Assembly: GCA_910574475.1 (NCBI GenBank)
Contig: CAJTAT010000003.1
Coordinates: 248,001 to 312,000 of the forward strand
From: Clostridia bacterium
GTDB lineage: Bacteria; Bacillota; Clostridia; Lachnospirales; Lachnospiraceae
Length of the DNA stretch: 64,000 nucleotides
Reading direction: 5' to 3'
Positions 23,227 through 56,520 of this stretch are shown here, piece after piece. Every line of letters starts with the position of its first letter. Within the stretch, counting starts at the first letter, position 1. The position numbers and the translations under genes are program-made. The notes under the pieces are model-generated. The model saw nothing but the letters and a program-made list of their open reading frames with translations, searched no databases and was not told the DNA's origin.

Positions 23227-24459
23227 TTACCCTTCTACCAAAGCAACTGTCACATCATTTACATTGGTTCCGGTTCCCCCGGTGATAATCAAACCATCAC
23301 ATTTCTCCAGTGCATGATAGGCGTCATTCTCCTGAAGTACTTCATAAATTCGGATTCCCTGCTTCTCAAGAATCTCTTTCGTCTTTCCGTCTACACAGCC
23401 GCCAGCGGCGTCCGTGGGACCGTCTGTGCCATCAGAGCCCATAGATGCAATTGCAAGATTGTCATAGCCTGCTATCTTTTCAGCAGCCGCGAGAGCCAAT
23501 TCCTGATTGCGCCCTCCCAGCCCTTTACCTGTCAGGTGCACAATCGTCTCTCCTCCGGCTATGAGGGCTACCCGCTCTCCTTTTCCTGCATGGTAGCGGG
23601 CGACAGATGCCATAAACCAGCCTGCCTCTCTGGCCACACAATCCATACTGTCTGTCAGAATGATTGGACGATACCCCAGGTTCTCGCACTCTTTCGCCGC
23701 AAACTTACACAACAGGCTTACGCCTCCTGTCACAACTGTACGTACATTTGTCAAATTCTTCGGCGTCTCCTGTCCCAGAAGTTCCATCGCTCTCTCTGAG
23801 AGTTTCAGCTTATATTTTCTCACCAGTTCCAACGCTTCATTGCAGGTAGACACATCTTCACAGGCTGGGCCGGATGCAATCATTCCCGGATTATCCCCCA
23901 CAATATCAGAGAGAATCACAGAATACACCAAAGCCGGAGCGCAGGCCTTAGCAAATCGTCCCCCTTTCACCCCTGACAGCCGTTTTCTTATGGTATTGAT
24001 CTCCACAATATCAGCGCCACATGCCAATAGCTGTCTAGAAATATCTGCCAACTCCTCCAGAGGAATTAATGGCTTTTCGAACAGTGCCGATCCGCCTCCT
24101 GACAGCAAAAACAGTACGGTATCATCTTCAGACAGATTCCTGGTCATTTCCAGTACTCGTTCCGTGGCAATCAGAGAGCTCTCATCCAGCACAGGATGGC
24201 TTGCCTCAAATATCTCGCATCCAGGAACCTCTCCTCTAGAATGGCCATGCTTCGTAACGATAATTCCCTGATCCATCCTGTCGCCAAGTACCTGAGCAGC
24301 AGCATTTCCCATTTCCCATCCTGCCTTTCCCACAGCAACCACAAGGACTCTCCCCTTACCTGGATGAAAGTCTGCCAGGGCGCGCTGAACAGACACATCC
24401 GGTAACGCACAGTCCACAGCCTTTCTACATACAGATTCCGCAAGCTTTTTTAATTCCAT
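23227..24459 (-). CDS. Glycerate 2-kinase, MOFRL family
   Basis: 410-residue kinase that phosphorylates D-glycerate, feeding it into glycolysis as 2-phosphoglycerate. Signatures: VVAVGKAGWEMGNAA, LFLLSGGGSALFEKP, VYSVILSDIVGDNPGMIASGP, and the C-terminal MOFRL region ALAAAEKIAGYDNLAIASMGSDG (split) with DGPTDAAGG. The ATG at 24459 behind GGAGG is the supported start; a GTG/ATG further out overlaps the site. It is inserted between plsY and gpsA in an otherwise conserved lipid/GTPase operon. Confidence 0.92.
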   Translation of the reverse strand: MELKKLAESVCRKAVDCALPDVSVQRALADFHPGKGRVLVVAVGKAGWEMGNAAAQVLGDRMDQGIIVTKHGHSRGEVPGCEIFEASHPVLDESSLIATERVLEMTRNLSEDDTVLFLLSGGGSALFEKPLIPLEELADISRQLLACGADIVEINTIRKRLSGVKGGRFAKACAPALVYSVILSDIVGDNPGMIASGPACEDVSTCNEALELVRKYKLKLSERAMELLGQETPKNLTNVRTVVTGGVSLLCKFAAKECENLGYRPIILTDSMDCVAREAGWFMASVARYHAGKGERVALIAGGETIVHLTGKGLGGRNQELALAAAEKIAGYDNLAIASMGSDGTDGPTDAAGGCVDGKTKEILEKQGIRIYEVLQENDAYHALEKCDGLIITGGTGTNVNDVTVALVEG

Positions 24460-24523
24460 TTTAACCTCCATTCTTTACCTAAGATAAATGTGATGTAAAT
24501 AAATATAAGTATATGTTAAAAAT

Positions 24524-46602: not shown

Positions 46603-47565
46603 TCAATTCACCACATGAACCTCCTCCCCTGCTAAAAACGCCCTCACATTCTCCACACTACAATCCATAATCCTCTGCCTACTCTCCACCGGCGCCCATG
46701 AAATATGAGGCGTAATCAAACAATTCTTCGCCTTTAACAAAGGGTTATCCCCACGGACAGGCTCCGTGGAAACCACATCCAGCCCTGCAGCAGCGACCTT
46801 GCCACAATTCAACGCATCTGCCAAATCCTCTTCCACAATCAACTGTCCCCGGGCATTGTTGATCACAATCACCCCATCCTTCATTTTCTCAATCGTTTCC
46901 CTATTAATAATCCCCACATTCTCCTCTGTCAGATTACAGTGCAAAGCAATCACGTCAGAAGAGCCAAGCAGCATATCCAACTCCACATACTCCCCGATAG
47001 TCCTTCCCCTGTCACTGGGATACACATCATAAGCCAAAACCTTCATGCCAAGAGCCTTTGCCACACGACCGGTAGATTGGCCGATACGTCCAAATCCAAT
47101 GATCCCTATGGTCTTTCCCTCCAGTTCAATGAGAGGATAGTCCCAAAAGCAAAAATCCTTACAGCTTTCCCAACGCCCCTCCAAAACCGCCTGGCTGTGA
47201 TGTCCAATATGATGGCACACCTCCAATAAAAGTGCGATAGCATACTGACTGACCGACGCGGTCCCGTAGGCCGGCACATTGGAGACAGGAATTGCTTTTT
47301 CCCTTGCATAAGCCACATCTACCACATTATACCCTGTGGCAAGTAAGGCAATGAATTTGATATTAGGGCAGGCGTCCAAGATCCCCTTGGAAATGGGCGT
47401 CTTATTCGTAAGCACAATCTCGGCATTCCCAATCCTATCTATGATTTCCTGCTCATCTGTAAGGCTCGTCCTTTCATATACCGTAAGTTCCCCCAGCTCC
47501 TCAAGCCCTTTCCAGCTTAAATCTCCAGGATTCTCTGTATATCCATCCAGAACAACGATTTTCAT
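46603..47565 (-). CDS. D-2-hydroxyacid dehydrogenase (hydroxypyruvate/glyoxylate reductase-like)
   Basis: 320-residue NAD-dependent dehydrogenase. NAD motif GFGRIGQSTGRVAKALG (about 147-163), catalytic Arg in NNARGQLI, Glu in the GLDVVSTEP region and His in TPHISWAP. The HISWA signature is typical of glycerate dehydrogenase/hydroxypyruvate reductase members. It is the last gene of the TRAP operon and overlaps the ribosome site region of the transketolase gene before it. In this context it may reduce hydroxypyruvate or another 2-oxo acid product. Confidence 0.9.
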   Translation of the reverse strand: MKIVVLDGYTENPGDLSWKGLEELGELTVYERTSLTDEQEIIDRIGNAEIVLTNKTPISKGILDACPNIKFIALLATGYNVVDVAYAREKAIPVSNVPAYGTASVSQYAIALLLEVCHHIGHHSQAVLEGRWESCKDFCFWDYPLIELEGKTIGIIGFGRIGQSTGRVAKALGMKVLAYDVYPSDRGRTIGEYVELDMLLGSSDVIALHCNLTEENVGIINRETIEKMKDGVIVINNARGQLIVEEDLADALNCGKVAAAGLDVVSTEPVRGDNPLLKAKNCLITPHISWAPVESRQRIMDCSVENVRAFLAGEEVHVVN

Positions 47566-47566
47566 C

Positions 47567-48511
47567 CTATCTCCCCCTCTCCATCAACTTATGAACCTGC
47601 TTCCCTATATTCTCCGGCGAAAATCCATAGGCATCTGCCAGCTCTTCTGCTCCGCCGGACTCCCCAAAGGTATCTTTTAAACCCATTCTCTCCACATACA
47701 TGGGATGATGCTCACAGGCAAGAGTGCAGATATAAGAACCCAATCCACCGTTTACATTGTGATCCTCTACCGTCAATACCCTGTCAAATTTTTTCAACAA
47801 TTCTATCAGCTTTTCTGGGGAACGGTTCTGCAAAATATTAACATCTGCAAGGGTAGCATGGATTCCTTCTTTCTGTAGAAGTTCCGCGGAAGCTATCACC
47901 CGATTCAATATAAACCCACTGGCGCAAATCAGTAGGTCCTTTCCATAGTCTCTCAGTACCCGAAACCCCTCCTCTGCAAAGGGAGTACCTGCAGGATAAA
48001 TATCTTCCTCTCTTCCGCTTCCCGCACGGATATACACAGGACCATTGATCTCTATGGACGCCTTCACCGCCTCATAGGTCTGCTGTGCATCGGCAGGGGT
48101 AAAGATGGTCACATTAGGAATACTGGATAAAATACCTAAATCCTCATAAAACTGATGGGTAACGCCTTCCCGCTCTCCTCCTACCAGCCCTGCATTGATT
48201 CCCACAAACTTTACATTCAGATTGGGATATGCTACAAAGGTCCTCATCTGTTCACAGGCGCGCATGGTAAGAAAGCCCGCATAGGTACCCACAAAAGGAA
48301 TCTGCCCGCAGGCGGCCAGCCCTGCTGCCACATCCACAGAACCCTGCTCAGAAATACCACACTCAATGTATTTTTCCGGGAATTTTTCTGCAAATGCCAC
48401 TGCACGCATTGCCTTGAGCGAATCGCTGGAAACAAACACAATCCTCTCATCTATTGTCGCAAGTTCTGTCAGTGCAACCGAAAAAGCCTCTCTTGTCCCT
48501 TTATAACTCAT
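47567..48511 (-). CDS. Transketolase C-terminal subunit, first split pair
   Basis: 314-residue protein covering the pyrimidine-binding and C-terminal domains of transketolase. The catalytic Glu for ThDP activation lies in YIECGISEQGSVDVAAGLA; FVGTYAGFLTMRACEQMRT and VEDHNVNGGLGSYI are family segments. ATG 48511 behind GAGGAGGAG is the start and overlaps the end of its partner gene by 11 nt. It forms a heteromer with the 276-residue partner (48501-49331), judged by coupling. Confidence 0.92.
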   Translation of the reverse strand: MSYKGTREAFSVALTELATIDERIVFVSSDSLKAMRAVAFAEKFPEKYIECGISEQGSVDVAAGLAACGQIPFVGTYAGFLTMRACEQMRTFVAYPNLNVKFVGINAGLVGGEREGVTHQFYEDLGILSSIPNVTIFTPADAQQTYEAVKASIEINGPVYIRAGSGREEDIYPAGTPFAEEGFRVLRDYGKDLLICASGFILNRVIASAELLQKEGIHATLADVNILQNRSPEKLIELLKKFDRVLTVEDHNVNGGLGSYICTLACEHHPMYVERMGLKDTFGESGGAEELADAYGFSPENIGKQVHKLMERGR

Positions 48512-49331
48512 GCTTCTCCTCCTCAATCAATCCCCTGGCTGCCTCAAACTGTTCTTTGGTAGGAACCTTTTTATGCCAGTCATTATTATTTTCCATAAAC
48601 GAAAGTCCCTTGCCCTTCACGCAATCACAGATAATGGCTGTGGGACTTCCCTTTTGTCCAGCACTTTCCATGAGCGCTGCCTTAATTGCTGCGTGATCAT
48701 GGCCATCAATATGAAGAATCTTCCACCCGAAAGATGCGAATTTGCTGTCAATCTCATCCACTCCCCCTGTTTCCTTTAAAGAGCCACCGCTCTGCCATCC
48801 ATTGTGGTCTACCAAAACTGTCAGATTGTCAAGCTGATGGTGGGCGGCAATCATAACGCCTTCCCACACAACGCCCTCCTGAAGCTCTCCGTCCCCAGTA
48901 ATCACATAGGTTCGATAATCTTTGTTCTGAAGCTTTGCAGCCAAAGCCATTCCTGTGCCGATGGGAATTCCGTTTCCCAGAGAACCGGATGTCATATCAA
49001 TGCCTGGCGTTTTCCCCATGACTGGATGTCCCTGAAAGGTTGTATGCAACTTACGGAGATTGAAATGTTCTACAGATTCCCCATAATATCCTTTCTCCGA
49101 AAGGGCAGCATAGAGAATCGGGCAGGCATGGCCTTTGGAGAGAATCAGGCGATCTCTGTCCAGCCAGTCAGGATTTTCAGGATCAATTTTCATCACATCT
49201 TCATATAGGACGGCAATGATATCAGCAATGGAAAATGCAGGTCCGGGATGACCGTCTCCTCCTTCATATACCATACGGTACGCTTCGTAACGAAGCTTAT
49301 CTGCAAATTTTTTTACTTCTTCTGTCTTCAA
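48501..49331 (-). CDS. Transketolase N-terminal (ThDP-binding) subunit, first split pair
   Basis: 276-residue ThDP/Mg-binding half: GDGHPGPAFSIADIIAVLYE, SKGHACPILYAALSEKGYY, GSLGNGIPIGTGMAL and the ThDP motif GDGELQEGVVWEGV ... VDHN. The start is TTG 49331, 9 nt after GGAGG, overlapping the previous stop (TTGA). It is clearly different from the second N-terminal subunit at 50284-51138, so this is not a recent duplication. Confidence 0.92.
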   Translation of the reverse strand: MKTEEVKKFADKLRYEAYRMVYEGGDGHPGPAFSIADIIAVLYEDVMKIDPENPDWLDRDRLILSKGHACPILYAALSEKGYYGESVEHFNLRKLHTTFQGHPVMGKTPGIDMTSGSLGNGIPIGTGMALAAKLQNKDYRTYVITGDGELQEGVVWEGVMIAAHHQLDNLTVLVDHNGWQSGGSLKETGGVDEIDSKFASFGWKILHIDGHDHAAIKAALMESAGQKGSPTAIICDCVKGKGLSFMENNNDWHKKVPTKEQFEAARGLIEEEKHEL

Positions 49332-50287
49332 GCCTGTCTGCCTCCTTTTCGCCCAATCACAATCTCTACTTTTTTCACAATACTTTGAGCGTCCATATTA
49401 AACTTTTTCTGTAGAAATGCAATACTGCCTACTTCCCCAAACCGTTCTGTGACACCGATAAATTCCATTGGCACCGGACAATTGTTCACCACTACGTTTG
49501 CAACTGCACTTCCAAGTCCTGTAGAGGTTGCATGATTTTCTGCTGTCACAATAGCCCCTGTCTCCTTGGCACACCTTATTACCAACTCTTTGTCTACCGG
49601 ACGCCAGCAGAACATATCAACTACCCGGACCGAGATTCCTTTTTCCTCCAGAAGTTTTGCTGCGTCCAGCGCTTCATATACTTCTATACCGCTGGCTATG
49701 ATTGTGACGTCCCGTCCATCCTGCAGCACATTACCTTTTCCCAGTTGAAAGGTTGTGTCTCCTTCATAGAGCTTCCGCTCCTCCTTGCGGTTCGTGCGGA
49801 TATAAAAGACTCCTGGAGTATTTTTCACTTCTCGCAACATCCATCGGAAAAGAATACCATCTGAGGGCTCCAACAAGGTAATATTGTTCAGGCCCATGAG
49901 GATCCCCATATCCTCCATCCCCTGATGAGAGCCTCCGTTTGTGGCCGCAGTGACTCCCGGATCGGAGCCTATCAGCTTTAAATCCAGTTTTGAGTAACAG
50001 GCGGCAAGAAAAATCTGATCCACGCATTTTCTTGCTGCAAAAGCGGCAAATGTATGGGCAAAGGGTATGACGCCGGCTTCTGAGGCCGCCGCTGCCATAC
50101 CGACCATATTCGCCTCCTGAATTCCGCAGTCTATCAGCCGGTCTGGGTATTTCTCCGCAAATTTGCGCAGGCCGCTGGCATTTACCAGATCTGCGTCAAA
50201 CACCAGTACCCGTGAATCTTCTCTTGCCAAATCAATCAATGCATCTCCTATTATTTCCTTAAAAGACACAGATTCCTGAACCATCAT
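49328..50287 (-). CDS. Transketolase C-terminal subunit, second split pair
   Basis: 319-residue pyrimidine-binding plus C-terminal domain protein. The activating Glu is in LIDCGIQEANMVGMAAAAS; FAHTFAAFAARKCVDQI and SDPGVTAATNGGSHQGMEDM are typical. Its start overlaps the upstream stop (ATGA) and its stop overlaps the next start (TTGA), so all four transketolase genes are translationally chained. Confidence 0.92.
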   Translation of the reverse strand: MMVQESVSFKEIIGDALIDLAREDSRVLVFDADLVNASGLRKFAEKYPDRLIDCGIQEANMVGMAAAASEAGVIPFAHTFAAFAARKCVDQIFLAACYSKLDLKLIGSDPGVTAATNGGSHQGMEDMGILMGLNNITLLEPSDGILFRWMLREVKNTPGVFYIRTNRKEERKLYEGDTTFQLGKGNVLQDGRDVTIIASGIEVYEALDAAKLLEEKGISVRVVDMFCWRPVDKELVIRCAKETGAIVTAENHATSTGLGSAVANVVVNNCPVPMEFIGVTERFGEVGSIAFLQKKFNMDAQSIVKKVEIVIGRKGGRQA

Positions 50288-51138
50288 GCCATCCCCCTTT
50301 TCATTTCCTCTATCTCCCGATCCAGTCGCTCAATTTCCTGCTGTTCGATTTCTTTTGATATCGGAAGATGATGACAGATAGGCTGCGCCAAGGCATATTC
50401 GCATCCCCAACCTTTTTGTGTGCGCAGGATAATCATAGATGGCCGGCCGGTCTGCCCCTGTGCCTTCCTGATCCCTTCATAAATCTGTGATACCTCATGT
50501 CCGTCTACTTCCTGGGCATACCATCCAAACTGCTCAAACTTCAGACGCAAGTCTCCCAGATGACAGACTTCCTCCACGCTCCCGTCCAGTTGCTGCTGAT
50601 TATAGTCTACAAAAGCAATAAGATGATCCAATTTATGCTGGGCACAGAACAGAGCCGCCTCCCAAACCTGTCCCTCGTCGCACTCCCCATCTCCCAATAT
50701 GCAGTAAGTATAATAAGAGTTTCCCATATAGCGAGCTCCCAGTGCAGAGCCTGCCGCCATGCTAATTCCCTGTCCCAGGGAGCCTGTGGAAAAATCTACC
50801 CCTGGTGTCTTATTCCTGTCTGCATGGCTGGGCAAAATAGTATCTCCCTGATTCAATGTCTCAAGCTCCTTTAAAGGGAAGAATCCCCTTAACGCCAGTG
50901 CCGCATACAGCGATGGGCCAGAATGTCCTTTGCTGAGTACAAACCGATCCCGATCCTTTCTGTGAGGATTTTGCGGATCTACGTTCATTACTTTGCCATA
51001 CAGTACAGCAAGAGTTTCCACCATACTCATGGCTCCGCCTATATGCCCGCTTCCCGCTGTACTCAGAGCATGAATGGTGGCTTTTCGTATTTCTGCCGAA
51101 AACAGATTCAATCTTAAAATTTCATCTTTGCTTAACAT
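50284..51138 (-). CDS. Transketolase N-terminal (ThDP-binding) subunit, second split pair
   Basis: 284-residue ThDP-binding half with AGSGHIGGAMSMVETLAVLYG (GSGHIGGAMS), RFVLSKGHSGPSLYAALALRG, GSLGQGISMAAGSALGAR and ThDP motif GDGECDEGQVWEAA ... VDYN. ATG 51138 lies about 8 nt after AAAGGA and is preferred to the ATG at 51144, which abuts the site. It follows the SDR gene by 12 nt. Confidence 0.92.
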   Translation of the reverse strand: MLSKDEILRLNLFSAEIRKATIHALSTAGSGHIGGAMSMVETLAVLYGKVMNVDPQNPHRKDRDRFVLSKGHSGPSLYAALALRGFFPLKELETLNQGDTILPSHADRNKTPGVDFSTGSLGQGISMAAGSALGARYMGNSYYTYCILGDGECDEGQVWEAALFCAQHKLDHLIAFVDYNQQQLDGSVEEVCHLGDLRLKFEQFGWYAQEVDGHEVSQIYEGIRKAQGQTGRPSMIILRTQKGWGCEYALAQPICHHLPISKEIEQQEIERLDREIEEMKRGMA

Positions 51139-51150
51139 ATTCATTTCCTT

Positions 51151-51993
51151 TCACACTCCCGGAGTAGCCATAAAACCACCGTCAACAGGAATCACCGCAC
51201 CATTGATGTAACCAGATGCCTCTGTGTCACAGAGGAATAAAAGCAGTCCAATCAGATCGTCCGGTACCCCCATCCGTCCTGCAGGAGTGTGGGCAATCAC
51301 CTTCTGGGAACGAGGCGTCAAGGTTCCATCCGGGTTCGTCATCATTGCCTTGTTCTGTTTTGTAATAAAAAATCCCGGCGCAATTGCGTTTACCCGAATC
51401 CCCAAAGGTCCCAAATGTACGGCCAGCCACTGGGTCAGACTGTTCACAGCCGCCTTCGCATTGCTGTAAGCCGCCACCCGGGTCAGGGCTGTATAAGAAG
51501 TCATGGATGACATATTGATAATCAAGGGATTTTCTGCTTTCATCAAGCCTTTTACAAAGACTTGAGTGGGAATAAAAGTACCCATTAGATTTAAATTCAG
51601 TACCCGGCTGTAAAGAATGGGATCCAGATCAAAAAAGGATATTTTTTCAGGATTCTTCACGTCCTCTGGGGTATAGACATCACTGCTGGTAGAGACTTTC
51701 ACATTATTGCCTCCCGCTGCATTGATGAGAATATTGTACCCGCCGTAGCTCTCCACAATCTTTCTTTCAGCCTCCTGCATACTTTCCCGGCTGAGTACAT
51801 CGCAGGCGATAGACACAGCCTCCCCGCCATTTTCCCGCACCTGACGGGCTGTCGCTTCCGCAGACGCCTGATCGATATCAAGCACCGCAACCTTCGCGCC
51901 GGATTTGGCCATATGCAGGGAAAAATTACTGGCTAAAATGCCGCCTGCGCCAGTGATAACTGCAATGCGATCAGATAAATCAACCTTCATCAT
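51151..51993 (-). CDS. SDR oxidoreductase, D-mannonate/fructuronate reductase-like
   Basis: 280-residue classical short-chain dehydrogenase. NAD site TGAGGILASNFSLHMAKSGAKVAV (TGAGGIL), NAAGGNN, and catalytic Ser/Tyr/Lys in MSSMTSYTALTRVAAYSNAK (YxxxK). An insertion around YTPEDVKNPEKISFFDLDPI is like that of SDR-type D-mannonate oxidoreductases (YjmF group). That points to a sugar acid substrate, but mannonate dehydratase and uronate isomerase are absent. The start is ATG 51993 or 51990 behind AGGAGG. Confidence 0.88.
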   Translation of the reverse strand: MMKVDLSDRIAVITGAGGILASNFSLHMAKSGAKVAVLDIDQASAEATARQVRENGGEAVSIACDVLSRESMQEAERKIVESYGGYNILINAAGGNNVKVSTSSDVYTPEDVKNPEKISFFDLDPILYSRVLNLNLMGTFIPTQVFVKGLMKAENPLIINMSSMTSYTALTRVAAYSNAKAAVNSLTQWLAVHLGPLGIRVNAIAPGFFITKQNKAMMTNPDGTLTPRSQKVIAHTPAGRMGVPDDLIGLLLFLCDTEASGYINGAVIPVDGGFMATPGV

Positions 51994-51996
51994 AAA

Positions 51997-52066
51997 CCTC
52001 CTATTTTCAGTTTGTATTTTGAGTTTCGTTCGGGCCCTAAGTGCATAGATAGGCCTTCGCTGTTTT
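51997..52066 (-). repeat. Dispersed repeat, copy 6 (dctM-SDR gap)
   Basis: Minus strand AACAGCGAAGGCC (52047-52059), then GGGCCCGAACGAAACTCAAA and a link to AGGAGG of the SDR gene. It is the most diverged copy. Confidence 0.4.
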
Positions 52067-53343
52067 TATCCATAAATGAGATTCGGCAGCCAGGTGGTAA
52101 AACCTGGAACCAATGTGACCAGAAGCAAGATGGTAAGCGCTACCAGATAAAAAGGCAGGATTCCTTTTACTCCCCGGGAGAGGGATACCTTTCCAATGCC
52201 GCAGGCCGTTGCCAGGCACACTCCCACCGGCGGCGTCACAAGGCCGATGACAAGATTCAGTACACTCATGGTTGTAAATTGAATGGCATCAATTCCAAAG
52301 ACAGAGGTGGCCACAGGCAATAATACCGGAAGCAGAATCAGCAGGGCCGAAAGAGTCTCCATGAACATCCCTACAAAGAGCAGTAATAGATTCACCAGCA
52401 GTAAAAAGACATATTTATTTGTAGTAAATGATGTAATGGAATTGGCAATCACTGTGGGGATCTGCTCTCTGGCAAGTACCCAGGCAAATCCCGCTGCAAA
52501 GCCAGTAATGGCCAGAACTGCTGTGGCCTGTATCATAGAATCTAAAACCAACTTAGGAATATCCCGCATTTTCAAGTCTTTGTATACAAAAGTCCCGATA
52601 GCCCACCCATAGACAACGGAAATCACCGAAGCTTCTGTGGGGGTACAAAGTCCACTTAAAATGCTGACCAAAATAATTACCACCATCAAAAGGGACCAGA
52701 AAGCATCTGCGGCAGATTTAATCATTTCACGAAAAGAACATTTGATTCCTCTGGGATATTGAAACCGGTATGCCAGATACAATACCAAACCTATCTGTCC
52801 TAGGCCAAGAAAGATTCCCGGGATTGCACCTGCCACAAAGAGACGCCCCACAGAGAGAGAGGCACAACCTCCTGCCACAATCATGGGAATACTAGGCGGG
52901 ATCAGGGGAGCCAGACAAGAAGATGCCGCTGTCACGCCAACTGCATGCTCTGAGGTATACCCCTCTTTTTTCTGAGCTGGAATTAAGATCCCGCCAATGG
53001 ACGCTGTATCGCCTGTGGCCGATCCTGAAATCCCTGCAAAAACCATAGAAGCCACAATATTTGCAATGCTCAAGCCACCTCTTAAATTACCAGACAGCCG
53101 TTTGCAGAAACCCACAATCCGCTCTGTAATCCCACCATTACTCATAAGATTACCGGCCAGCATAAATCCTGGAATGGCAAGCATGGTAAAACTGTCTATC
53201 CCGGAGAAAAATTTTTGAGGAATCGCATTTACTGCAATATCACTCTGTACCATATAAATAAAAGATTCCATCCCTAGTGCCTGCGCAATTGGGACACCAG
53301 CAAATAATAAGATTACTAAAATAATTAAAATAAATCCAAACAT
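52066..53343 (-). CDS. dctM: TRAP transporter large permease, DctM
   Basis: 425-residue membrane protein with about 11-12 membrane segments, the ion-coupled channel subunit. Family motifs: GMESFIYMV, AIPGFMLAGNLMSNGGITERIVGF (split), GSATGDTASIGGILIPAQ, and VTPPVGVCLATACGIG near the C-terminus. It overlaps the DctQ stop by one base (TAATG). It imports a carboxylate with Na+ or H+. Confidence 0.95.
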   Translation of the reverse strand: MFGFILIILVILLFAGVPIAQALGMESFIYMVQSDIAVNAIPQKFFSGIDSFTMLAIPGFMLAGNLMSNGGITERIVGFCKRLSGNLRGGLSIANIVASMVFAGISGSATGDTASIGGILIPAQKKEGYTSEHAVGVTAASSCLAPLIPPSIPMIVAGGCASLSVGRLFVAGAIPGIFLGLGQIGLVLYLAYRFQYPRGIKCSFREMIKSAADAFWSLLMVVIILVSILSGLCTPTEASVISVVYGWAIGTFVYKDLKMRDIPKLVLDSMIQATAVLAITGFAAGFAWVLAREQIPTVIANSITSFTTNKYVFLLLVNLLLLFVGMFMETLSALLILLPVLLPVATSVFGIDAIQFTTMSVLNLVIGLVTPPVGVCLATACGIGKVSLSRGVKGILPFYLVALTILLLVTLVPGFTTWLPNLIYG

Positions 53344-53819
53344 TACGTTTTCCCCCTAAGAACCTCCCGAAATCCATTGACTGCCTTCTCCAGAAAAAAC
53401 AATGCTGTCAACGCCGGACCTATTAAAACAGTCATATAGAGCCAAGACATGGGAATCCGTAAAACAGAAGATTTCTGCAAAGCTCCCACTCCAACGAGGC
53501 TGTAAGCGTGATAGGCCACTAAAATCAAAAAGACAGCCACGATAGCATCTAGCACCATCAGCCAGATTTTCTGCGCCTTTCGTGGAAATCTGTTAAGGAG
53601 GATATCCACTCGAATATACAAATCTCTTCTGGCTGCCAAGGGCGCTGCAAAAGCAACAATTCCCGCCAGGATATATCTAGATAGCTCTTCTGTCCAGGAC
53701 ACAGCGTTCCCCAATACCCGTCCGAATATCTGAAGTAATACAATTAAAATCAATGCAATTCCAAGGCTAATTACTAAAAGTTCACACACCTTCGCAATAA
53801 AATCAAGAACCTTCTTCAT
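53343..53819 (-). CDS. dctQ: TRAP transporter small permease, DctQ
   Basis: 158-residue protein with four membrane segments. VSWTEELSRYILAGIVAFAAPLAAR (split: WTEELSRYILAGIV) is the DctQ signature, followed by DLYIRVDILLNRFP. It lies between DctP and DctM, 95 nt after DctP, with a stable hairpin in that gap. Confidence 0.94.
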   Translation of the reverse strand: MKKVLDFIAKVCELLVISLGIALILIVLLQIFGRVLGNAVSWTEELSRYILAGIVAFAAPLAARRDLYIRVDILLNRFPRKAQKIWLMVLDAIVAVFLILVAYHAYSLVGVGALQKSSVLRIPMSWLYMTVLIGPALTALFFLEKAVNGFREVLRGKT

Positions 53820-53835
53820 AATCTTCCTTTCTCTG

Positions 53836-53888
53836 TGAGACTACTGTAAAGTAAGCTTACATGAACTACTTGTTTTACAGCAGTCTCA
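53836..53888 (-). other. Intra-operon hairpin between dctP and dctQ
   Basis: 15-bp stem with one mismatch, TGAGACTACTGTAAA (53836-53850) with TTTACAGCAGTCTCA (53874-53888). There is no T-run; it probably protects the dctP message or attenuates, giving excess binding protein. Confidence 0.6.
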
Positions 53889-53913
53889 GATATTTTGACT
53901 TGAATGATCAATC

Positions 53914-54981
53914 TTATTTATTCATATCTATCATCTTCAGATAAAGGTCGTAAATCTCCGGCTCTAACTGTTCCTCCAGAACTCTCTTTGCCACTTCAAT
54001 AAAGGGGGCTTTGTCTACTTCCACAAACTCTATTTGATCCTGAAGGGTCGCCTCCTGCTCTGCCACCATATCCTTAAGATAATCCCACTGAAACTTCTCC
54101 ATCTCTTCTGCCGCAGTATTGATAATCTCCTGCTGCTCTTCTGTCAAAGACTGCCAGAACTCTTCCCCTATCAATACATAAATCCAGCTATAGACATGCT
54201 CTGTCTTAATGAGATATTTTTGAACTTCTGGAATATTTGCGGAAATAATATTTGCATAAGGGTTTTCCTGGGCATCCACGGTTCCATTCTGCAATGCAGA
54301 AAATGTCTCACTCCATGCAAGAGGGGTTGCGGAAGCTCCAAAAGCGTTCCACATAGCCAAATGGAGATTATTGTTTGGCACACGAACTTTCATTCCTTTT
54401 AAGTCGTCCATGCTTTCTACCTTCTTGTTCGTGGTCAGATTCCGGGCACTGCGAATAAAGAATCCAATGGGATGAAGCTTCACATTTTCAACAATCTGCT
54501 GCTCAATAACACCGCCCACTTCCTCAGAGCTTGCAATTGTAATCAAGTCATCCAGGCTGTTCACTGCATAGGGCATTGCCACCAATGCTGCATAAGGTGT
54601 CCAGTTAGACATGGTATCTCCTGAGAGAACACCTTCACATGTACCCTGCTGAATGGCAGTGATATTGTCAACCTCTGCGCCCAGTACTTCATTTGCATAA
54701 ATTTCAACCTTCATCTCGCCCTCACTCAAAGTCTCTACCTGCTCCTTGAATACTTCCAGGCCTTTCTGCCAGTCCCCTTCTTCATTCTGAGCGTGTCCGA
54801 TACGAATGACTATGGGTTCTTCTGTGCTCTCTTCCTCATCCTTGTCTGCTGGTGTTTCCTGAGCTTCAGGCACAGTTGTTTCACTCTCGCTGGCAGCAGG
54901 GGCCTCCTGTTTGGAACCACAGGCTGTAAGTGTACCAGCCAGCATAGCTGTAATAAGTAATAATGCAATGTTCTTCTTCAT
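53914..54981 (-). CDS. dctP: TRAP transporter solute-binding lipoprotein, DctP
   Basis: 355-residue binding protein. Signal peptide with lipobox LAGTLTACGS (Cys about 21), an acidic Ala/Glu/Thr linker to about residue 55, then the DctP fold starting IVIRIGHAQNE. The conserved carboxylate-binding Arg is in LKGMKVRVPNNNLHLAMW, so the ligand should carry a carboxyl group. TPLAWSETFSALQNGTVDAQEN is the second diagnostic segment. The start follows GGAGG. Confidence 0.94.
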   Translation of the reverse strand: MKKNIALLLITAMLAGTLTACGSKQEAPAASESETTVPEAQETPADKDEEESTEEPIVIRIGHAQNEEGDWQKGLEVFKEQVETLSEGEMKVEIYANEVLGAEVDNITAIQQGTCEGVLSGDTMSNWTPYAALVAMPYAVNSLDDLITIASSEEVGGVIEQQIVENVKLHPIGFFIRSARNLTTNKKVESMDDLKGMKVRVPNNNLHLAMWNAFGASATPLAWSETFSALQNGTVDAQENPYANIISANIPEVQKYLIKTEHVYSWIYVLIGEEFWQSLTEEQQEIINTAAEEMEKFQWDYLKDMVAEQEATLQDQIEFVEVDKAPFIEVAKRVLEEQLEPEIYDLYLKMIDMNK

Positions 54982-55027
54982 GGTAATCCTCCAATTCTTA
55001 TTTTTCTGTAAACCATCCCCGATGGAA

Positions 55028-55699
55028 TTACACGTAGATTTTGGCTGCTGTCTCAGCTACTTCTTTTGCCGCATAAACGGGACTTGCAAATACAGGTTTT
55101 CCTGTCTGTTCTACTACATCCTCCGCGCTTTCTGCCATAGAATTCTGTGCAAATATGATTGCGTCAACTTCCTCCAGGCAGCCAGAAAGTTCTTTAAGAA
55201 TCCGTTCTGTCAACTGTTTCTGATTGAGTCCAAAAGCACCACTTAACAAAATCTCTCTGATCTTTGGTGTCTTATTTTGCTCTTTTGCACATTTTTTCAC
55301 TAGATCACAACTGGGTTTCATGGTAGTTGCCAAGGTGGCAACTACAGCAATACGCCCATACTCTGCCACCGCCTCTTTGCACATCTGATGATCAATGCGA
55401 ATAAGATGTGCACCTGCCAGTTCAAAAAGGGGCTGTGCAGCATCCGCAATACTTCCAATGGATGAACACATATTCAGAATAATATCTGCCCCGTTATCTA
55501 CACAAGCTGAATACATGCGAATCAATTCTGCTACATCCTGACTCTGAATTTCCTGGTGCTCTGAAATCCGTGAAATTAAATCTGGATCTGTCATATGCGT
55601 CACCACATAGGGCACCGTCATAATCTTTTTCAACTCTGCCTCCATGATTCCAAAAATTCCTGGACTGGCACCTGTGTGTACACAAGCTACTTTTACCAT
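55028..55699 (-). CDS. Asp/Glu racemase-fold enzyme with one catalytic Cys
   Basis: 223-residue protein of the aspartate/glutamate/hydantoin racemase superfamily. The first catalytic Cys (C78, in DIILNMCSSIGSIAD) is present, but the second position, normally a Cys, reads FAQNSMAE (about 183-190). Single-Cys members may act as decarboxylases or lyases rather than true racemases, as in arylmalonate decarboxylase. It heads the structural operon, directly before DctP, and presumably acts on the imported carboxylate. The start follows AAAGGTGG. Confidence 0.85.
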   Translation of the reverse strand: MVKVACVHTGASPGIFGIMEAELKKIMTVPYVVTHMTDPDLISRISEHQEIQSQDVAELIRMYSACVDNGADIILNMCSSIGSIADAAQPLFELAGAHLIRIDHQMCKEAVAEYGRIAVVATLATTMKPSCDLVKKCAKEQNKTPKIREILLSGAFGLNQKQLTERILKELSGCLEEVDAIIFAQNSMAESAEDVVEQTGKPVFASPVYAAKEVAETAAKIYV

Positions 55700-55727
55700 C
55701 TGTTTACCACCTTTGTATTATGTTCAA

Positions 55728-55737
55728 TGTAGGATGT
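55728..55737 (-). promoter_or_regulatory. Candidate FCD-regulator motif upstream of the racemase/TRAP operon
   Basis: Minus strand CATCCTACAT followed 5 nt later by ATAATAC. The same words, CATCCTACAT and ATAATAC, occur on the plus strand at 56537-56546 and about 56557-56563, upstream of the regulator gene. Confidence 0.45.
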
Positions 55738-55779
55738 TTAAGGATAAAAATATACAGCAATCCTGCATGGACAGAATTT

Positions 55780-56520
55780 TCAAATATCAATGGAATTCGT
55801 ATCTTCCAACTGAATATTGATCTTCCAGTAACGAAAGCTATCTTCAATCGTCTCATACACCTGCTCTGTAGAGCGCTCTAATATCATCTGTGTCTCTTTT
55901 TGATGGATTTGAATCAAGAAATCCCGCTCATTATGTTCCGTAATATAATCTGTAGTCTTAATACGACTTTGACGACTCAGCCGGGTAATGACTTGGTGTA
56001 TTCTCTGAAATAAAATATTATGAGTTGACTGACAGACTGCATCATGAAATCTAATGTCAGCATCCAACAACATCTCTGAAGTAGATTCTGGATCTTTCAG
56101 CAATAGAACAAAAGCATCACAAGCTTCCTGAATTGCTTCAAAATCTTCTGGTTGTGCATTTTTAATTGCAAGCTTCAGGCAATCTGCATCAAATATACTG
56201 CGAAGCTCCAACAGGGAAACAGACATATCATTTTCCAAAGCCAAGCTGTAAATCAAGGGATTTAACATTTTTTCAGAAAATTTATTCGCCACAAAAGTAC
56301 CATCTGGACGGCGGATTTCCAGCATACCCAGTGTCACCAGAACGCGAACTGCTTCTCTCACGGAATTGCGCCCTACATGGAAGGCTTCCGCAAGCTCAAG
56401 CTCTGTGGGGATCTTAGAACCCGGCTGCCAATGCCTGGATATAATTGCATCTATCATTTCATCTACAATTCGATCCACCGTTGATTTTGTACCAATTGGT
56501 TTAATATATTCAAGTGCCAT
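55780..56520 (-). CDS. GntR-family transcriptional regulator, FCD (FadR) subfamily
   Basis: 246-residue regulator. N-terminal winged helix (about 12-75): GSKIPTELELAEAFHVGRNSVREAVRVL (split: FHVGRNSVREAVRVL), RRPDGTFV. The C-terminal helical FCD domain (about 95-235) contains metal-ligand motifs DIRFHDAV and later HNERDFLIQIHQKE. FCD regulators usually bind organic or sugar acids. It is upstream of, and codirectional with, the racemase-TRAP-transketolase genes and is the likely local regulator. Confidence 0.92.
   Translation of the reverse strand: MALEYIKPIGTKSTVDRIVDEMIDAIISRHWQPGSKIPTELELAEAFHVGRNSVREAVRVLVTLGMLEIRRPDGTFVANKFSEKMLNPLIYSLALENDMSVSLLELRSIFDADCLKLAIKNAQPEDFEAIQEACDAFVLLLKDPESTSEMLLDADIRFHDAVCQSTHNILFQRIHQVITRLSRQSRIKTTDYITEHNERDFLIQIHQKETQMILERSTEQVYETIEDSFRYWKINIQLEDTNSIDI

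Follow-up and report, generated by a model that had tools for sequence, protein, structure and literature searches.

A split-transketolase operon with a hexonate-type TRAP importer in a Lachnospiraceae genome: a candidate kinase-free route for dismantling sugar acids

The stretch of DNA considered here, referred to as the window, comprises 64,000 nucleotides of a Clostridia bacterium of the Lachnospiraceae (assembly GCA_910574475.1, contig CAJTAT010000003.1, positions 248,001 to 312,000 of the forward strand), whose genome assembly of 4.46 Mb in 56 contigs is 95% complete. At window positions 46603-56520, on the minus strand, lies an operon of eleven codirectional genes, from the start of a regulator gene at 56520 to the end of a dehydrogenase gene at 46603, that combines a tripartite ATP-independent periplasmic (TRAP) importer with two different split transketolases (TK-A and TK-B) and may serve to dismantle an imported sugar acid. 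The families listed below, assigned with Pfam and NCBIfam models against their cut-offs, agree with those named in a preliminary description of the locus.

55780..56520, minus strand: GntR/FCD-family regulator (PF00392 63.4 bits, PF07729 53.9 bits)
55028..55699, minus strand: RAC, Asp/Glu racemase-fold protein with one invariant Cys (PF01177 36.5 bits, cut-off 31)
53914..54981, minus strand: DctP, TRAP solute-binding protein of hexonate type (TIGR00787 177.3 bits, cut-off 175.05)
53343..53819, minus strand: DctQ, TRAP small permease (PF04290 96 bits)
52066..53343, minus strand: DctM, TRAP large permease (TIGR00786 394.9 bits, cut-off 268.45)
51151..51993, minus strand: short-chain dehydrogenase/reductase (SDR) of the D-mannonate oxidoreductase subfamily, proposed hexonate C5 dehydrogenase (NF006132 363.5 bits, cut-off 281)
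50284..51144, minus strand: TK-A N subunit, thiamine diphosphate (ThDP)-binding (PF00456 175.7 bits; GDG...N and SKGH motifs)
49328..50287, minus strand: TK-A C subunit, active-site letters KSFDR (PF02779/PF02780; tree and motif)
48501..49331, minus strand: TK-B N subunit, ThDP-binding (PF00456 192.5 bits; GDG...N and SKGH motifs)
47567..48508, minus strand: TK-B C subunit, active-site letters RAFNR (PF02779/PF02780; tree)
46603..47565, minus strand: D-2-hydroxyacid dehydrogenase, proposed glyoxylate/hydroxypyruvate reductase (PF02826 184.9 bits)

From the SDR gene to the dehydrogenase gene, neighbours lie at most 6 bases apart or overlap: 6 bases separate the SDR and TK-A N genes, the ATGA and TTGA overlaps reported earlier join the TK-A N gene to the TK-A C gene and the latter to the TK-B N gene, and 1 base separates the TK-B C and dehydrogenase genes, while DctQ and DctM overlap by 1 base. 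For the TK-B C subunit, an ATG at 48508, giving an 8-base overlap, is a more likely start than the TTG at 48526 in the list of open reading frames. Both pairs qualify as split transketolases, with separate ThDP-binding and pyrimidine/C-terminal subunits, the catalytic His and Glu, and the motifs GxGHxG, SKGH, GDG...N, GIxE, and [ST]HQ. By the same family assignments, none of the eleven genes encodes a kinase or an aldolase, as stated before, and there is no sulfoquinovose (SQ) isomerase, sulfoquinovosidase (SQase), or ApnO-like PF16896 gene among them; the accompanying claim that an isomerase is missing is doubtful, as the racemase-fold gene may encode an isomerase or epimerase. A strong hairpin, found by eye and not listed by the terminator scan, lies 3' of the last gene (~46500-46420), and the operon is flanked downstream by genes of an ABC (ATP-binding cassette) sugar importer and upstream by an AraC-type regulator gene in divergent orientation.

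The importer gives the clearest indication of the substrate. The closest solved relative of DctP is 4pc9/4pcd (252 bits), the next match in the PDB reaching 133 bits; these structures reportedly hold D-mannonate and L-galactonate. Two arginines, R180 and R200, are invariant across 33 aligned sequences (that of the window and 32 of the 48 listed), in keeping with the carboxylate-binding Arg noted earlier. In a plasmid collection, 34 records match DctP at E 1e-50, and among the 15 matches listed, all eight inspected loci carry both uxuA, at most 7 kb away, and a Zn-alcohol dehydrogenase gene, the latter annotated as L-idonate 5-dehydrogenase in five of them. These loci come from Alloyangia, Paracoccus (3), Peteryoungia, Azospirillum (2), and Cetobacterium, that is, from Rhodobacterales, Rhizobiaceae, Azospirillum, and Cetobacterium. 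The DctP of L085, an apionate-type cluster of a kind described below, served for comparison and has 301 matching records; of the four inspected among 15 listed, none has uxuA, two have tetronate genes (e.g., D-erythronate dehydrogenase, 3-oxo-tetronate kinase, OtnI, and LtnD), and two have other gene sets, and its best solved match is 4pdh (227 bits), with 4pc9 at 138 bits. Because the uxuA context is found in 8/8 against 0/4, the window importer is, by its kinship, of the hexonate kind, in keeping with the sugar acid postulated before. Import of a simple C4-dicarboxylate is rejected on the kinship of DctP with 4pc9/4pcd and uxuA-linked relatives. For the DctP of another locus, L113, there is no PDB match at E 1e-30. 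In Haemophilus influenzae, L-gulonate and D-mannonate are TRAP ligands according to PMC5788505.

The SDR, which exceeds the cut-off of the D-mannonate oxidoreductase model as its earlier label implied, is proposed to oxidise C5 of the hexonate; the methods section of PMC5788505 includes a C5 oxidation assay of D-mannonate using UxuB of H. influenzae. Its relatives occur in different settings: near uxuA in Paenibacillus; away from it in Bosea, with Zn-alcohol dehydrogenase, sugar isomerase-like, and mandelate-racemase-family genes; and, at 51% identity, in locus L056 with a TRAP importer, a TK-A-type pair, and genes for glyceraldehyde-3-phosphate dehydrogenase (GAPDH)-like, phosphoglycerate kinase (PGK)-like, LarA, and malic-enzyme proteins, with no TK-B. 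The window's own genome encodes a second SDR above the NF006132 cut-off (420 bits), 49% identical to that of the operon and directly adjoining UxuA (G000:C2:340.8-342.7 kb). With a D-mannonate route elsewhere in the genome, the operon substrate could be another hexonate.

The two transketolases differ from each other, as originally described, both in clade and in active-site letters, and their C subunits are only 30% identical, so that a recent duplication is rejected. The letters KSFDR and RAFNR depart from the canonical RSFHR and from the RAFDR of the sulfofructose (SF) transketolase, as given in PMC11659671. The relationship that was to undo any novelty, membership of both pairs in an assigned clade such as that of apulose-4-phosphate transketolase, was not found, and this assignment is rejected: AptB of E. 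coli SE15, traced by means of locus tags given in PMC13001218, falls outside both clades (29% and 32% identity).

Relatives of TK-B were collected by scanning 84,980 species genomes with an alignment of the C subunit and two peptide patterns, and 80 of 87 were kept; the scan was confined to stretches bearing one of the two patterns and may lack records that closely resemble the window's genome. The 80 loci split cleanly into 37 apionate-type loci, where TK-B is 57-68% identical to that of the window, and 43 racemase-linked loci, where it is 45-55% identical, and the two marker genes occur together in none. A PF16896/KARI_N gene, which we take to be of the D-apionate oxidoisomerase (ApnO) kind, is present in 37/37 apionate-type loci, a racemase-fold gene in 0/37, and a glycerate kinase gene in 9/37. 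In 25/37, a 2-hydroxyacid dehydrogenase 60-77% identical to that of the operon lies within 12 kb of TK-B, so a role of the operon enzyme as a hydroxypyruvate or glyoxylate reductase fits. The kinship suits the reduction of a hydroxypyruvate-type product to a glycerate-type acid suggested earlier, glycerate now being one of two options, the other glycolate. The apionate-type loci (L068-L103 and L117) include those of Blautia hansenii (L082), Blautia parvula (L077), and Lactonifactor (L081), and it is possible that they encode an apionate route via cleavage of 3-oxo-isoapionate to hydroxypyruvate, which is not known to be among the apionate routes already described.

The racemase-linked loci (L104-L147 except L117) are from Spirochaetes, Clostridia, Planctomycetes, and Bacteroidetes, and often have a TRAP importer and an FCD regulator; six have GH127, presumably an aceric-acid hydrolase. 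A racemase-fold gene is present in 40/43 (two of the misses, L111 and L123, are on contigs below 5 kb, and the third, L147, has a weaker match), a transaldolase-like gene in 24, the 2-hydroxyacid dehydrogenase gene in 2, and the apionate-type gene in none. In the transketolase tree (109 rows, or 59 when thinned; L117 left out), the TK-B of the window forms one group with 36 apionate-type rows (support 100/100, full tree) and lies outside those 36 rows (100/86), and it differs from this nearest group in having a racemase-fold gene and no apionate-type gene. The first active-site letter reads '-' in many rows, the gene start being called downstream. AFNR with E is found in 79 TK-B rows including that of the window, and L071 alone reads SFNR. 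Second transketolase matches in the 80 loci are as follows: L090, L101, and L102 have full pairs reading RAFHR with D, of a clade other than TK-A; the second pair of L141 reads RAFSR; in L093 a further N subunit, its C subunit untyped, is encoded on the opposite strand where the stretch ends; and L140 has one N gene matched in two parts.

In the window's genome, the TK-B N subunit has 16 matches, two of them weak and the other 14 including both operon N subunits and a second tandem double of split transketolases at C4:187-191 kb. The latter (C4:182.7-192.1 kb, L026:2703-12094) is accompanied by TRAP-type and Fe-alcohol dehydrogenase genes and, by eye, a Zn-alcohol dehydrogenase gene and no kinase gene; at C5:359-366 kb (L029:8925-16306), a split pair lies near a 60% identical paralogue of the operon dehydrogenase. 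Within the genus, the TK-B C subunit is matched at E 1e-100 in 2/16 genomes, the window's own and G207, the latter in a different context.

The racemase-fold protein links TK-B to a further set of genes. Asp/Glu racemases (PF01177) use two catalytic Cys residues. The operon protein has the PF01177 fold, and C78 is the sole Cys to stay invariant across an alignment of 38 sequences, its own plus 37 of the 40 from TK-B loci, confirming the single-Cys character first noticed; there is no PDB match at E 0.01. A search of 200 genomes of the family at E 1e-15 yields 13 further racemase-fold loci, including one from the genome of the window itself. A DUF1537 kinase gene accompanies 11 of the 13, BKACE 8, and GH127 5, while 3 have a DctP match and a single one has an apiosidase-like gene; those with the DUF1537 kinase are L032-L037, L156-L158, L160, and L161. 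A DUF1537 match is found in 0/43 racemase-linked TK-B loci. The racemase-fold proteins of the two contexts are nonetheless 65-82% identical in 12 compared pairs, and the TK-B and DUF1537 labels are mixed in a racemase-fold tree of 52 rows (L037, L140, and L147 left out), forcing at least 2 changes, or 4 by parsimony. The racemase-fold protein therefore probably makes or epimerises an acid usable by either the DUF1537 kinase or TK-B. By the chemistry of OtnK and OiaK, this acid would be HOCH2-CO-C(OH)(COOH)R, which TK-B would cleave to R-CO-COOH, that is, hydroxypyruvate if R = CH2OH and glyoxylate if R = H. A common acid made for TK-B would also explain why the apionate-type and racemase-fold genes are mutually exclusive.

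TK-A leads to a different neighbourhood, for in the tree it groups with transketolases of inositol clusters. In a class sample of 291 genomes, the TK-A C subunit has matches at E 1e-85 or better in 13 genomes besides the window's own, and of 12 of these 13 loci, seven have genes for type II GAPDH-like, PGK-like, and LarA proteins, three a malic-enzyme gene, and four IolD with an identity of at least 56%, a count that omits two weaker matches (29-30%). TK-A-type rows read SFDR with N, except for one AFDR. The TK-A-type pair stands with GAPDH-II-like, PGK-like, and LarA genes in L057:1390-13331, L058, L062, and L063, and in part in L056, L061, and L064, LarA being of the malate-racemase type in L056 and L057. 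In L057, matches to IolD, IolB, IolE, IolG, type II GAPDH, and malate racemase LarAH6 are above cut-off, and the malic-enzyme-like and PGK-like genes fall below the model cut-off, their L056 counterparts passing Pfam. IolC reaches the 300-bit cut-off in 0/7 genomes with the GAPDH/PGK/LarA set and in 3/14 controls. The simplest reading would be that in the inositol clusters a transketolase, not a kinase, handles 2-deoxy-5-keto-gluconate, giving malate semialdehyde and xylulose 5-phosphate (Xu5P), and gene content suggests that L057-type clusters convert this keto acid to malate and pyruvate by way of transketolase. TK-A may therefore cleave carboxylate-ended ketoses, and its action on a 5-keto-hexonate fits because 2-deoxy-5-keto-gluconate is fructuronate minus one hydroxyl. 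Two other loci deserve mention. L159:2394-10359, from another genus of the family, is a single run that combines SDR and racemase-fold genes with a TK-A-type pair and, by eye, an ABC sugar importer, and it lacks TK-B; in a Salmonella plasmid record (L171:3883-7864), phosphotransferase system genes, one annotated as ascorbate-type, precede a split pair whose C subunit is 48% identical to that of TK-A and reads RAFDR.

Taken together, the gene set, the transporter kinship, the SDR family, and the two transketolase clades with their partners are what sequence comparison supports, and three separate gene-neighbourhood lines point to candidate chemistry; the individual reactions, the part played by the racemase-fold protein, and the identity of the acceptor are what we infer from them. 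We tentatively propose, at a probability of about 0.4, that the operon encodes a carboxylate counterpart of the sulfo-TK pathway of sulfoquinovose, in which an imported hexonate is dismantled by two transketolases without a kinase. The TRAP importer would take up a hexonate of the D-mannonate/L-gulonate kind, which the SDR would oxidise at C5 to a 5-keto-hexonate, which in the case of D-mannonate is D-fructuronate. Such a ketose carries a carboxylate at the place of the phosphate of fructose 6-phosphate, and D-fructuronate matches fructose 6-phosphate in the stereochemistry that transketolases accept. TK-A would then move its HOCH2-CO unit onto an aldose phosphate such as glyceraldehyde 3-phosphate, yielding Xu5P and a C4 aldehyde acid; the racemase-fold protein would convert the latter into its 3-oxo-tetronate form, from which TK-B would take a second HOCH2-CO unit to leave glyoxylate, and the dehydrogenase would reduce this to glycolate. 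On this scheme, one hexonate and two glyceraldehyde 3-phosphate would give two Xu5P and glycolate, with carbon, phosphate, and redox (NADH) balanced at no cost in ATP; for a branched acid, hydroxypyruvate and D-glycerate would form the final pair.

Several observations weigh against this scheme. The full gene set is seen in one genome only, which bears on the earlier call to count how often both pairs co-occur: among the typed second pairs in the 80 TK-B loci, none is of the TK-A type, and SDR matches there are at most 36%. With E-values limited strictly, none of the 249 other genomes in the family sample matches DctP, and the SDR has one other match (49%) in the class sample of 291. The presence of UxuA with its own SDR means that D-mannonate already has another route in this organism. 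TK-B groups with enzymes expected to give hydroxypyruvate from a branched acid rather than glyoxylate from a linear one, and support for placing it outside the apionate-type rows falls to 96/68 in the 59-row tree. The racemase-fold protein of the window is 26-37% identical to its aligned relatives and sits on a long branch of unsure place, which makes transfer of function to it weak; members of the Asp/Glu racemase superfamily do not usually catalyse an aldose-ketose shift, and 8/43 racemase-linked loci also have a xylose-isomerase-like gene. As for the inositol clusters, sub-threshold IolC matches occur in all 7 inositol-type genomes (best 200 bits), so that a divergent IolC-type kinase could be present in them, and IolD is present in the stretch read for 4/7 of the GAPDH/PGK/LarA loci only.

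Three other explanations have to be weighed. In the first, which appears somewhat improbable, the imported acid is either a branched hexonate (hamamelonate-like) or one that leads to 3-oxo-isoapionate, and TK-B would produce hydroxypyruvate and the dehydrogenase D-glycerate, as proposed for the apionate-type clusters. The well-supported grouping of TK-B with the apionate-type rows and the close dehydrogenase copies there fit this, as does a MOFRL/DUF4147 glycerate kinase gene in the window (23227-24471), the sole PF13660 match in the genome, but that gene lies away from the operon; for the other glycerate kinase family, PF02595, there is no match in the window's genome and one or more in 5/14 control genomes. 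Nor is there an apionate-oxidoisomerase gene in the operon or, at E 1e-5, a PF16896 match in the genome, a search made without a positive control on a 95% complete assembly, and DctP groups with hexonate importers, whereas the DctP of one apionate-type cluster (L085) groups elsewhere, two of four inspected relatives being linked to tetronate genes. A second explanation, improbable on present evidence, is that two acids are processed in parallel behind one importer and regulator, a hexonate by the SDR and TK-A and a tetronate-type acid by the racemase-fold protein and TK-B. L056, with its SDR and TK-A-type pair but no TK-B, and the 40/43 loci with a racemase-fold gene and TK-B but no typed TK-A-type pair are as this would predict; the single importer of hexonate kinship and the tight gene run with overlapping starts are not, and L159 joins a TK-A-type pair to a racemase-fold gene without TK-B, so that this combination occurs as well. 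Very improbable is a set of apulose-4-phosphate or ordinary pentose-phosphate transketolases that was co-opted next to a mannonate importer while the UxuA encoded elsewhere in the genome, with its SDR, handles the sugar acid, since neither pair groups with AptB or carries the canonical letters.

It should be noted that a transketolase route without a substrate kinase has already been described for sulfoquinovose (the sulfo-TK pathway; PMC11659671). Both there (SqwGH) and in the scheme proposed here, split transketolase takes two C2 units in turn from an acid-ended ketose and passes them to glyceraldehyde 3-phosphate, leaving a C2 oxo compound (PMC11659671). In contrast to the sulfo-TK pathway, the operon would act on a carboxylate rather than a sulfonate, employ two different transketolases instead of one used twice, and make the ketose by a dehydrogenase; it has no SQase or SQ isomerase, and its active-site letters are not the RAFDR reported in PMC11659671. 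L-gulonate and D-mannonate catabolism (HiGulPQM, UxuB, UxuA) resembles it in the TRAP importer, whose relatives are linked to uxuA, and in an SDR of the D-mannonate oxidoreductase model, but there (PMC5788505) fructuronate is reduced to mannonate, followed by dehydration by UxuA and then KdgK/KdgA. The operon lacks the dehydratase, kinase, and aldolase, and its SDR would run in the oxidising direction. The myo-inositol clusters (L057, L058, L062, and L063) share a TK-A-type pair with the same SFDR letters; unlike in the operon, the keto acid would come from inositol via IolD/IolB, and these stretches have no TRAP, SDR, or TK-B match. The D-apiose and D-apionate pathways, reportedly described by Carter et al. 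2018 with AptAB, ApnO, and OiaK, are approached by the grouping of TK-B with transketolases beside ApnO-like genes and by the same kind of last dehydrogenase, but the operon has neither an ApnO-like gene nor a kinase, and AptB is outside both clades. In open-licence PubMed Central texts, a collection outside which subscription papers mostly lie, no paper was found on transketolase with apulose/3-oxo-isoapionate, uronate, or myo-inositol/malate semialdehyde. The preliminary statement that no described pathway has this set stands insofar as neither pair belongs to the clade of E. coli AptB, and gives way insofar as kinase-free dismantling by transketolase is known for sulfoquinovose; the sugar-acid version, if right, is new. 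The operon is real, and its first reading, partly supported, is improved rather than overturned.

If the scheme is true, transketolase dismantling of acid-ended ketoses would be a general kinase-free strategy for sugar acids, not special to sulfoquinovose, with further substrate classes visible in genomes. Two split-transketolase clades and a racemase-fold family, so far found under generic family names, would thereby gain functions. The predicted products are direct: Xu5P together with glycolate, malate, or glycerate. In its most far-reaching form, which is doubtful as a whole, the operon would encode a complete ATP-free, redox-neutral route for linear hexonates, relying only on two transketolases of different specificity and on an Asp/Glu racemase-fold protein as a new aldose-ketose isomerase, and would be one of a wider transketolase-based set (inositol, apionate, and racemase-linked acids) that replaces kinase-aldolase steps in anaerobes.

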